Below the pieces are notes generated by a model, which worked only from the letters and a program-made list of their open reading frames with translations, ran no database searches and had not been told where the DNA came from. Both the position numbers and the translations under genes were made by a program. A stretch of 64,000 bases of DNA from Bdellovibrionales bacterium Ga0074139 (lineage in GTDB: Bacteria > Bdellovibrionota > Bdellovibrionia > Bdellovibrionales > Bdellovibrionaceae), in the NCBI GenBank assembly GCA_001464795.1, contig LNEB01000014.1:186001-250000 (forward strand). The letters run 5' to 3'. Within the stretch, counting starts at the first letter, position 1, and the number at the start of each line of letters is the position of its first letter. This document shows positions 34,409 through 38,142 of this stretch, in pieces.

Positions 34409-34878
34409 TGGGCCAATTCAGTCATCTCGATAATATTAAACAGATCTTATCCAATCAGCGGGAGCAAAAAAAAATTGTTTTCACCAATGGGTGCTTTGAT
34501 CTTTTGCATGTGGGACACGTTAGGTACCTTCAAGAGGCGAAAAAGCAGGGCGATATTTTAGTCGTTGCCCTCAATTCTGATGAAAGTGTTAAAAAGCTAA
34601 AGGGTCCTAGTCGCCCGGTTCAATCAGAACAAGACCGGGCAGAAATTTTAGCAGCATTAGCTTGTGTGGATTATACTTTTATTTTTAACGAACAAACTCC
34701 AGAAAAAGTAATTAAAGAATTGAAACCTAACATATTGGTTAAAGGTGGAGACTGGAAAGTTTCTCAAATTGTAGGCTCTGACTTTGTTCAATCCTACGGT
34801 GGACAAGTGCTTTCTTTGAATTTTGTAGATGGTAAATCGACGACCAAAATTATTGAAAAAACTAAAGTCGATAAGTAA
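34408..34878 (+). CDS. Heptose-1-phosphate nucleotidyltransferase (HldE C-terminal/RfaE2 type)
   Basis: From the ATG at 34408 (156 residues) this is a single cytidylyltransferase-like domain. It contains the [15 protein letters not shown] motif with HxGH, and VKGGDW near the C terminus. RfaE2 activates heptose 1-phosphate for lipopolysaccharide core synthesis. In E. coli it is fused to a kinase; here it stands alone, as in many bacteria. The upstream ATG at 34348 lies within the RDD gene. The 3' end overlaps a convergent gene by 17 bp. Confidence 0.88.
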
Positions 34879-35569
34879 TTAAAATCGTATTATGAAACTT
34901 CTTTACCCAGTCACTTTGGGCCGATAAAGTCCACCGACCCAATTCATAACTGAATCTGAAGACTTGATGGGAATAGCGCCGACCAATCCCAAAAGTTGTA
35001 GTGCCTCCACCTTGCAAAACTTGTGGCTGAAAGGTTGAAGTAAGACGCAGATCACCTGTTGAAGCATAAATTTGCATACTATTAAATTGATAACTAGCGG
35101 CCACTTGAGTTCCATATAAATTAACTCCTAGTAAGGACTTTAAATTTATACTGGATCCATGGATCAAAGTGTACAGCTTCACGTCATTCCATTTTGCAAA
35201 GGACCATCTGGCAAAGCCACCTGACTGTTGAATCCTGTTCTGATCAGAAATGAAAGAAGTGGCCACACCAAGATCTACGTCAAAGGGAATTTGCAAACCA
35301 AAATGAAACAACTGTGTTTGTAGTGGGGTTCGACTGGTACCATTGCCAAGCTTTGCAATATCTTGTGTTTCCAAGTAGCTCGTGGAAGCTGATAAATAAG
35401 AGTTCAGTTTATTTTCCACATTTTGAAAATCAGGTGTTTTCACAACAAAACCCACAGCGAAACGATCCAGAATTATTTTTGCATCACTTTGAGTTATATT
35501 TGTTGGGATATTAAATGCTGCGTAGGCATTACAGGCTGAAAATAAAAAAACTAAAGTAAGCAAACTCAT
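34862..35569 (-). CDS. Secreted, probably outer-membrane beta-barrel protein
   Basis: The 235-residue protein has a signal peptide (about 1-18). Cleavage after AYA is likely; FSAC is a poor lipobox. The rest is rich in short alternating strands with aromatic residues and ends in TYRL, which suggests a beta barrel. I do not recognise a family. It is 11 bp downstream of the coiled-coil membrane protein and is probably expressed with it. Confidence 0.6.
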
Positions 35570-35580
35570 CAGAGCTCAAG

Positions 35581-36693
35581 TTAAGCAGGAGTTATAGAAG
35601 TCTGCAACTGTGAAAGCATCCCTTGAGCCCACTGTGTAAGACCCGAGCTTGGATTTGATACTAACCATTGTAAAGTGGGCACTAGTCTTCTGTAATTACT
35701 TAAGCTTTGATTAGAATTACCACGATTGATACGCACTGGTTGATTATTGGCTGTGTTAGCTGATTTCAACTTTTCAACACCCTTCGAGATCACATCAGCA
35801 GCTACAGTTTTAAGTTCTGTTTCAACAGATCGTAAAACCTGCTCGAGAACTGGAAGTGCTTGGGGGCGAGCGTAGTTGTAAATATATTCTGATAAAATTG
35901 TCTGACCTTCAGCGCTAATTCGGGACTTGTACTGGTTGGCAAGCTTGAAACTCTCGAGGCTAGTTGCAGCGGTTAAAATCCAAGCACCTAAGGTTTTCTT
36001 ATTTTCAGCATTATCTTTCATTAATAATTCAGCGACTTCGTTGTAGCTCGCCAAGTCCACTTCACCTTTTTGAAAGGCCTCTGCAAATAAAGCAGCGTTT
36101 TCACGTGTGGGTTGAGACAGAATCAAGCTCTTCCATTGGTCAGCAGTTAAAGAATCTTCTTTTTCCTCGTCATTATTAGTTTGGCTGTTATCTGCATTTA
36201 AGTTTGCATTCTTTCGAGCAGCGAAACCATTGGCCTGATCAAGTGAATTTTCTAGGTTTGATAAGTTCTCAAGTTCTTTTCTTAAAAGTTCACGACGATA
36301 CCTTTCAGACTCTTGCACAACACGGATTCGAAACTCACGCTGCTGAGCCTGCTTCTGCAAGTATTGACGACGGTATTCATCATTTCTCTTTTTTTCTGCT
36401 TCAGTCATTTTTTTATCAACGGCTGCTTGAGTGGCCTTTTTTGGATCTGCTTTTTTATCAGCTAGCTTTGGTTTTTTTGCTGAATCTGAATTTTCTACGA
36501 TACGAATGACATTTCTATCATCCAAAGAAAAAGAGGCAAAAAACTCCTTAACAGGTCTTGGCATATTGACGGTGAAAATTTCTTGGATCTTTTGATCAAA
36601 GTCAGCAGAGTTATTGGGCTTAAAAATAACAAAAGCACCAAACAGGATTACAGCCATGAGCCCTATAATTGTGTTTAAGTACGATCTTTCCAT
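35581..36693 (-). CDS. Membrane-anchored coiled-coil protein of unknown function
   Basis: From the ATG at 36693 the protein has 370 residues: one membrane segment (NTIIGLMAVILFGAFVIF), a linker to about 85, a strongly charged helical region (about 95-150) likely to be coiled coil, an acidic Asn/Asp/Glu stretch, and a helical C-terminal half. No family is recognised. AGAGGT is the ribosome-binding site, and it is the 3' arm of a perfect 8-bp hairpin. A sigma-54-like sequence lies just upstream. The next gene, a secreted barrel, begins 11 bp downstream. Confidence 0.7.
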   Translation of the reverse strand: MERSYLNTIIGLMAVILFGAFVIFKPNNSADFDQKIQEIFTVNMPRPVKEFFASFSLDDRNVIRIVENSDSAKKPKLADKKADPKKATQAAVDKKMTEAEKKRNDEYRRQYLQKQAQQREFRIRVVQESERYRRELLRKELENLSNLENSLDQANGFAARKNANLNADNSQTNNDEEKEDSLTADQWKSLILSQPTRENAALFAEAFQKGEVDLASYNEVAELLMKDNAENKKTLGAWILTAATSLESFKLANQYKSRISAEGQTILSEYIYNYARPQALPVLEQVLRSVETELKTVAADVISKGVEKLKSANTANNQPVRINRGNSNQSLSNYRRLVPTLQWLVSNPSSGLTQWAQGMLSQLQTSITPA

Positions 36694-36695
36694 AA

Positions 36696-36718
36696 GCACC
36701 TCTAACAACTAGAGGTGC
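36696..36718 (-). promoter_or_regulatory. Hairpin that includes the ribosome-binding site
   Basis: GCACCTCT (36718-36711) and AGAGGTGC (36703-36696) are perfect 8-bp arms around a 7-base loop. The 3' arm contains the AGAGG ribosome-binding site 4 bases before the start codon. In a read-through mRNA the site would be paired. Confidence 0.6.
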
Positions 36719-36732
36719 AGAGATAATGCCAA
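36716..36732 (-). promoter_or_regulatory. Sigma-54-like (-24/-12) promoter
   Basis: The minus-strand 17-mer TTGGCATTATCTCTGCA has GG (36730-36729) and GC (36718-36717) 10 bases apart, as sigma-54 promoters require, and the TTGGCA and TGCA ends are intact. The predicted first transcribed base is about 36705, in the hairpin loop. Confidence 0.45.
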
Positions 36733-36838
36733 TTTGGCCTTTCTCAGAGTGAAATTACAGGCTAACCAGCTTCATTTAATATCGTAATGAGACCCCATGA
36801 CATTTTAGGCCTCAACGGTCTTTGATTTTAACAGTGTC

Positions 36839-36855
36839 TCAGAATGAGATTCTGA
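36839..36855 (-). terminator. Hairpin directly after the RlmI-like gene stop
   Basis: TCAGAAT and ATTCTGA are perfect 7-bp arms around a 3-base loop, and the structure begins on the base after the TAG stop. There is no T-run after it, so a Rho-independent terminator is uncertain; it may stabilise the 3' end. Confidence 0.4.
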
Positions 36856-38142
36856 CTACAGACCCACTTGGTAAGTATTCATTTTTAAATACTGCCCTTC
36901 TGGAAATTCAGGCCTGGCTGTGTGATCCCAAGCATTGCCTCCGCGCAGTAGTAAATAGCCAGGCTGGCCTGCTCGAATGAAACCCTTTAAAACGGATTGA
37001 TCAAAAGCGTCTTTTGAAACAAGCCCCGAGCATGAACACGAAACTAAGAAAGCCCCTTTTTTAAGTCTTTTGATGGATTCAGTATTCAACCTGATGTAAG
37101 CGGATAATCCTTTTTCTAAATCTTTTGAGGATTTAACAAATGCAGGTGGATCACAAATAACAACGTCATAACTGTTTTCAGGCAGTGGCCAGTCATTCAG
37201 GGCATCTTGCTTCACAGCATTCACACTGCTTGCACCCTTGGCATTCATTTTAGCAAACTTTAAAGCTGTTTCAGAAATATCAATCATGTCGATTTCCACT
37301 TCGATATTATGATCTTGTCCCCATTTGGCAATTTGTGCTGACCAATGTCCGACATAGCAACAAACATCCAGAACTCTGATTTTCTTAGCTGTATTTTGTT
37401 TAGATAAAAAATTAAGAAAAGTCGAAATATTCAAATTTTGATCTAAAAATAAACCAGTTTTTTGACCTTGATACAGATCACAGTTAAGGACTAATGGTTC
37501 TGATCGATTATAAGAATTCACTAAAACAGGAACATTAGACCATTCAATCTCTTTAACAGTTTGAACAAAGCGAGCTTCTTCTTTGCGAAGACCCTCGTGT
37601 TCACGAACACGAACATCATTTCTAAAGATGATCGCTGTTCTTTCATTATCAAATGAACAAAGTTTTTGCTCAAAAGCTTTTTGAATCAATCTTCTAAAGA
37701 TTTCAGGATTTTTTCTTAAAATAGAATCCATGCCAGCTGTTAAAATTTGAATGGCTAAAGCTTGAGCATTAAGATCTGGATGCAAGCGGTACACGTCTAT
37801 GACAAGACCTGGAAGACCATCGCCTTCACCAAAGCAAAGCCTAAAGCTATTTGTAAATCCAAGTTCCTGCTTTCGTTTCCAAGATTTTAAAAGTTTATAC
37901 AGTACAAATTCTTCGGTCGTAGGGTGTCCTGACTCCAAACCAAAACTGAGAGCACGAAATGAAACCTTACTTTCAAGATTTCCATATCCACGCGCTAAAA
38001 CTTCGCCTTTTTCTGACTGAAGCTCGACAGCTGCCCCAGGATAAGGAAGAATTGGGGCTCTTTTTAATTCATCTCGGTAGACCCAAGGGTGCTTTAATTT
38101 TACTTTGTATTGGCTTTCGCTTTTGACAGTCCAGATGGTCAC
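36856..38142 (-). CDS. RlmI-like 23S rRNA methyltransferase
   Basis: This 428-residue protein has an N-terminal PUA-like domain (about 1-90) and a class I SAM methyltransferase domain. VLDVCCYVGHWSAQ is the SAM loop, VVICDPPAFVKSS the catalytic motif and LVSCSCSGLV the following strand. The family includes RlmI (m5C1962 of 23S rRNA). The PUA-like domain supports an RNA target, but the exact base is not certain. The ATG overlaps the upstream gene by 4 bp. Confidence 0.88.
   Translation of the reverse strand: MTIWTVKSESQYKVKLKHPWVYRDELKRAPILPYPGAAVELQSEKGEVLARGYGNLESKVSFRALSFGLESGHPTTEEFVLYKLLKSWKRKQELGFTNSFRLCFGEGDGLPGLVIDVYRLHPDLNAQALAIQILTAGMDSILRKNPEIFRRLIQKAFEQKLCSFDNERTAIIFRNDVRVREHEGLRKEEARFVQTVKEIEWSNVPVLVNSYNRSEPLVLNCDLYQGQKTGLFLDQNLNISTFLNFLSKQNTAKKIRVLDVCCYVGHWSAQIAKWGQDHNIEVEIDMIDISETALKFAKMNAKGASSVNAVKQDALNDWPLPENSYDVVICDPPAFVKSSKDLEKGLSAYIRLNTESIKRLKKGAFLVSCSCSGLVSKDAFDQSVLKGFIRAGQPGYLLLRGGNAWDHTARPEFPEGQYLKMNTYQVGL

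Follow-up and report, generated by a model that had tools for sequence, protein, structure and literature searches.

A sigma-54-like promoter set within a hairpin over the ribosome-binding site, and its probable role in silencing read-through transcripts in Bdellovibrionales

Genes with sigma-54 promoters are thought to be off unless their activator fires, and read-through from a neighbouring gene would bypass that control. How such a leak might be closed is the question raised by a gene on the minus strand (35581–36693) of a 64,000 nt stretch of DNA, here called the window, from Bdellovibrionales bacterium Ga0074139. The gene begins with an ATG at 36693–36691 and encodes 370 aa without a Pfam match (open reading frame, profile search and alignment). 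The alignment shows a hydrophobic N-terminal segment, a conserved EMPRP motif, a charged linker and a conserved C-terminal region, and the product is probably an envelope protein because of its hydrophobic N-terminus; two of the 24 aligned members of the ortholog family matched HEAT repeats. Of the 66 family genomes, 64 have an ortholog, as do 114 of the 140 genomes of the order. The upstream gene, 162 bases away on the same strand (36856–38142), encodes an RlmI-like methyltransferase (PUA_3 and SAM methyltransferase domain matches) and is a possible source of read-through. A scan of the minus strand between the two genes gave no terminator-like site. Downstream, after a gap of 11 nt, a 235 aa gene without a Pfam match (34862–35569, minus strand) likely belongs to the same operon; the start of its product resembles a signal peptide.

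The preliminary description had noted a minus-strand GG and GC ten bases apart, and these lie exactly where claimed, at 36730–36729 and 36718–36717. They belong to a sigma-54-like promoter, TGGCATTATCTCTGCA (TGGCAT-TATCTC-TGCA; 36716–36731, minus strand), identified by its sequence, by comparable sites before orthologs and by the presence of rpoN. Counting both strands, the window has the bare pattern GG-N10-GC 256 times and TGGCAY-N6-TGCW just once; the site carries this TGGCAY/TGCW context around its −24 and −12 elements, at the ten-base spacing. That it is a sigma-54 promoter is nearly certain, judged from sequence. With the C of the GC taken as −12, the transcription start is predicted 12 nt downstream, at 36705 on the minus strand. 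This agrees with the earlier placement of the first base in a hairpin loop.

The hairpin consists of a perfect 8 bp inverted repeat (36718–36696, minus strand), which runs from the −12 GC to a point just short of the ATG. Its 5′ arm, GCACCTCT (36711–36718), overlaps the −12 element, its loop (36704–36710) is 7 nt long, and its 3′ arm, AGAGGTGC (36696–36703), holds the Shine-Dalgarno sequence AGAGG (36703–36699), which lies entirely within the stem. The structure was identified from the inverted repeat and by folding, and the arms match those described previously; the predicted fold adds a ninth, A-U pair to the stem and reduces the loop to 5 nt. An RNA that includes both arms has a minimum free energy (MFE) of −15.2 kcal/mol, compared with −3.6 kcal/mol for one starting at 36705, and the predicted cost of opening the Shine-Dalgarno sequence of this leader is 12.7 kcal/mol in the read-through form compared with 1.9 kcal/mol in the sigma-54 form. 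The comparison of the two transcript forms proposed earlier therefore favours the claim. Of 25 gene starts in the window, with a mean fold of −2.6, this leader is the most stable at −14.9, and the window contains four perfect 8 bp repeats with loops of 3–8 nt and at least four G+C per arm, compared with one, two and two in three shuffles. Window statistics were rejected as sufficient proof, as each element singly could be due to chance; it is conservation among relatives that makes the feature more than chance.

In the proposed mechanism, the −12 element of an enhancer-dependent sigma-54 promoter would also form the beginning of the hairpin's 5′ arm. RNA from the sigma-54 start, at about 36705, would begin in the loop without the 5′ arm, leaving the ribosome-binding site exposed and translated. 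RNA reading through from the co-directional upstream gene would have both arms, fold, hide the ribosome-binding site and be translated poorly. Both the occurrence of read-through and the repression of its translation are inferred from the sequence; if they hold, the hairpin would insulate the gene at the level of translation, so that expression would depend on the sigma-54 activator.

The −24/−12 elements, whose conservation in close relatives had been named as a check, proved to be widespread. Sites scoring at least 11 precede 60 of 63 family orthologs, as against 5.7% of shuffled upstream sequences, and sites scoring at least 13 precede 45 of the 63, as against 0.16% of shuffles; they mostly lie 38–47 nt upstream of the start codon. 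The genome carries one rpoN gene (PF04552 match, E 8.6e-64) and 17 PF00158 matches to sigma-54 activators, 14 of them strong. The 63 orthologs come from 64 matching family genomes after G073 (contig end) was left out. For the later comparisons, three genomes without a site (G012, G017 and G018) were dropped, together with G005, which was counted among the 60 with a site and has a doubtful start, leaving 59. Outside the family, 50 genomes had a match, of which 42 were examined (one, G104, was cut off and seven were not fetched), and 25 of the 42 passed a filter for site, Shine-Dalgarno sequence and spacing. No frequency of the site is claimed for these genomes because the choice of start there favoured starts with a site.

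Three enhancer-like palindromes lie further upstream on the minus strand. The first (36836–36850) has one mismatch to GTCTCANNNTGAGAC and is conserved upstream of orthologs; the other two (36779–36793 and 36741–36755), recognised by sequence, are degenerate, with three mismatches each, and are weak singly. Palindromes with at most two mismatches, no more than 220 nt upstream of the sigma-54 site, were found in 43 of 59 family genomes, compared with 0.85% of shuffles. Their distances are helically phased (p 0.0005, 33 distinct genus-position pairs), with a best period of 10.0 on these pairs and of 11.4 on all 51 positions. Conserved and phased palindromes fit an activator-dependent promoter.

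The same type of palindrome is frequent genome-wide. With at most one mismatch, GTCTCA-N3-TGAGAC occurs 34, 88, 31, 95 and 35 times in five family genomes and its reversed control 4, 7, 5, 7 and 1 times, making it about 6 to 35 times commoner than the control (G000, G007, G006, G014 and G003). It probably marks, on sequence grounds, a large regulon of one activator or of another dimeric regulator. To find the cognate activator, the DNA up to 1.5 kb from each of the 14 strong activator genes was scanned for palindromes with no more than one mismatch, and none was found. Three more sigma-54 sites of G000 have a palindrome close upstream (L194, G000:C11:43404; L195, G000:C3:158574; L196, G000:C13:142128) and likely belong to the same regulon; the genes that follow them encode small or exported-looking proteins.

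When family leaders were folded from the −12 region to the ATG, 31 of 59 had an MFE with p ≤ 0.05 against shuffles. Arms, loops and register vary, and genus g6 alone includes the arm pairs TCTTAC/GTAAGA, TCTTGAT/ATCAAGA and GCTCTTAT/ATAGGAGC. Stable folds could also arise with no selection on a hairpin, if the pyrimidine-rich TGCTCTT that follows the −12 element pairs by coincidence with the purine-rich Shine-Dalgarno AAGAGG. Pairing was separated from shared motifs by joining the 5′ halves of leaders to the 3′ halves of other genera. Such chimeras of unrelated halves already reach a mean of about −5.8 kcal/mol, as coincidence would have it, but own halves pair better, at −8.0 kcal/mol (genus-level p 0.009–0.02, 16 genera), and they also beat chimeras over all 84 leaders from 34 genera (p 0.002–0.003). 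Chimeras within a genus, where shared ancestry can inflate the result, gave p values of 0.0002 or less in g6 (20 distinct leaders) and 0.01–0.02 in g3 (12 leaders); the covariation seen by this test was non-significant in g5 (p about 0.2, six leaders). In G000 and G007, certain other sigma-54 leaders do fold well, in keeping with coincidence, and the other strict sigma-54 sites of these two genomes gave no common hairpin pattern (30 of 84 sites). Against it, genomes with a divergent upstream gene share both motifs, GC content and spacing, yet their leaders pair more weakly. Motif coincidence is therefore unlikely, and these comparisons of leader sequences indicate that selection likely acts on the hairpin.

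The geometry of the pairing is also relevant to the silencing of read-through. Family hairpins with p ≤ 0.1 comprise 364 base pairs, of which 343 link a base ahead of the predicted +1 to one located at it or beyond; a transcript from the sigma-54 start would therefore be unable to form these 343. Opening the Shine-Dalgarno sequence is predicted to cost on average 3.7 kcal/mol more in the long form of the family leaders, compared with 1.7 kcal/mol more with foreign upstream sequences, and the difference was greater with the own than with a swapped upstream in 42 of 59. Stems cover at least three of the six Shine-Dalgarno bases in 23 of the 31 significant family hairpins, and fewer in most hairpins of g6. 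In this Bdellovibrio-like genus most stems only border the Shine-Dalgarno sequence, reaching two or three of its six bases, which makes the strength of silencing there less certain, though a stem ending at this point might conceivably impede the ribosome all the same. For G043, the long form is predicted to be no costlier to open, and in both G043 and G046 the costs of the two forms differ little or in the wrong direction.

If the hairpin serves to silence read-through, only genomes whose upstream gene is transcribed towards the ortholog should need it. The share of genomes with a significant hairpin was 31 of 51 where the upstream gene is co-directional and 5 of 33 where it is divergent (Fisher 3e-5; MWU 1.5e-4). 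A stratified permutation gave p 0.006, and at genus level p was 0.047 with the shuffle p and 0.012 with the MFE. Within the family taken separately, 30 of the 50 co-directional genomes had such a hairpin, as did 1 of the 9 divergent ones (Fisher 0.008); among the non-family genomes, hairpins were present in 4 of 24 divergent genomes and in the one co-directional genome. For the long form, the cost of opening the Shine-Dalgarno sequence is 6.65 kcal/mol in co-directional genomes, as against 3.41 kcal/mol in divergent ones (p 1.8e-6). This last comparison covers 82 of the 84 leaders, two having a Shine-Dalgarno sequence before the predicted +1, and uses labels set by the fixed rule described below. 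Neither GC content nor leader length differs between the two groups. Within genus g1, the co-directional G000 and G001 have the hairpin and the divergent G002 does not.

Orientation was assigned by a fixed rule, taking conserved frames first and then length. Family genomes had first been judged by eye, with the hairpin values already known, and the rule returned the same 9 and 50. One genome outside the family, G083, was moved by hand from the co-directional to the divergent group because the sole frame on the same strand seemed spurious, a change that counts against the silencing reading and that was left out of the opening-cost comparison; the counts before it were 32 of 52 co-directional and 4 of 32 divergent. 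The link with orientation is what silencing of read-through predicts, and it is partly confounded with phylogeny, as 24 of the 25 non-family genomes are divergent. There are exceptions on both sides: G060, G119, G124, G082 and G083 are divergent and have a hairpin, and 20 co-directional family genomes miss p ≤ 0.05, with G009, G015, G052, G070, G072 and G079 clearly lacking one.

The neighbours themselves differ between groups. In most family genomes the upstream gene is a same-strand CxxCxxCC gene (zinc- or iron-chelating domain; e.g., L200 in G007), and outside the family it is usually a conserved gene of about 310 codons in divergent orientation, which in the one example scanned (L250, G119) encodes a MeaB-like GTPase. 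At L047 (G042), a frame between the CxxCxxCC gene and the ortholog makes the neighbour divergent, and the leader is the same as that of G007; we take this frame to resemble a REP-associated tyrosine transposase.

The inverted repeat around −3 might instead be a DNA operator, bound by a dimeric repressor and overlapping the promoter. Its arms are palindromic as DNA too, and the centre of the dyad is roughly constant near +1, both of which speak for an operator. An operator would not track the orientation of the upstream gene, however, and within a single genus (e.g., G046, G043, G048 and G054) the arms vary in sequence and length, the loop in length and the pairing in register; this variation disfavours a shared operator and leaves the explanation very unlikely. 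There is less still to recommend an RNA thermometer or similar on-transcript switch, in which RNA from a constitutive upstream start would be controlled by melting of the hairpin, for although the stem covers the Shine-Dalgarno sequence and a weak sigma-70-like match lies at 36831–36802, the promoter scan that found it gave four matches against 4.0 in shuffles, and a conserved sigma-54 site overlaps the 5′ arm.

Silencing of read-through by a hairpin that contains the promoter is accordingly the reading we prefer, and on the comparative sequence evidence the mechanism as a whole is probably correct. The earlier proposal that translation depends on the promoter used is largely supported by the conservation, the fold comparison and the orientation link. 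A wider view is that self-excluding promoter hairpins are selected as translational insulators, are gained or lost with the orientation of the neighbour, and perhaps occur at many activator-only promoters; the arguments for and against this seem to us evenly balanced. If true, genome context would, through rearrangement, shape the structure of 5′ leaders. The locus suggests that a leak into a sigma-54 gene can be closed at translation by an element that the proper promoter automatically omits, and the link with neighbour orientation offers a comparative-genomic test for translational insulators at any class of tightly regulated promoter.

In its −24 GG and −12 GC ten bases apart, and in its upstream palindromes, the promoter resembles ordinary enhancer-dependent sigma-54 promoters, the definition of which, to our knowledge, includes no hairpin around +1. 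A related case is the transposase of IS10 and IS50, whose ribosome-binding site is masked on RNA that comes in from beyond the element but not on RNA made from its own promoter; these are transposons with sigma-70 promoters, unlike the window gene with its sigma-54 promoter. The literature searched yielded no report of a promoter-in-hairpin arrangement at a sigma-54 promoter and no study of a Bdellovibrio RpoN or sigma-54 activator regulon, and a paper on attack-phase transcription start sites of Bdellovibrio does not mention RpoN in its main text (PMC3627812).

The closest parallels are in phages. The late promoter of T4 gene e lies in the DNA encoding the 5′ strand of a structure that sequesters the ribosome-binding site; the early transcripts, which are long, undergo about 100-fold repression, and the late ones are without the 5′ strand (PMC3014915). 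For I-TevI, concealment of the ribosome-binding site is confined to RNAs initiated at upstream promoters, and the late start omits sequence that the structure requires, with I-TevII, I-TevIII, segB and Aeh1 mobE grouped under the same type of control (PMC2988022). The window locus is like both in having promoter elements in the 5′ strand, a predicted +1 beyond it and the ribosome-binding site in the 3′ strand. It differs from gene e, a phage lysis gene read with the late sigma factor gp55, in being a chromosomal gene with an enhancer-dependent sigma-54 promoter, where the hairpin would protect against read-through from a neighbour, and from I-TevI, which belongs to mobile endonuclease genes of phages without a sigma-54 promoter, in its location on a bacterial chromosome. 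The logic of the proposed arrangement is that already known from T4 gene e and I-TevI.
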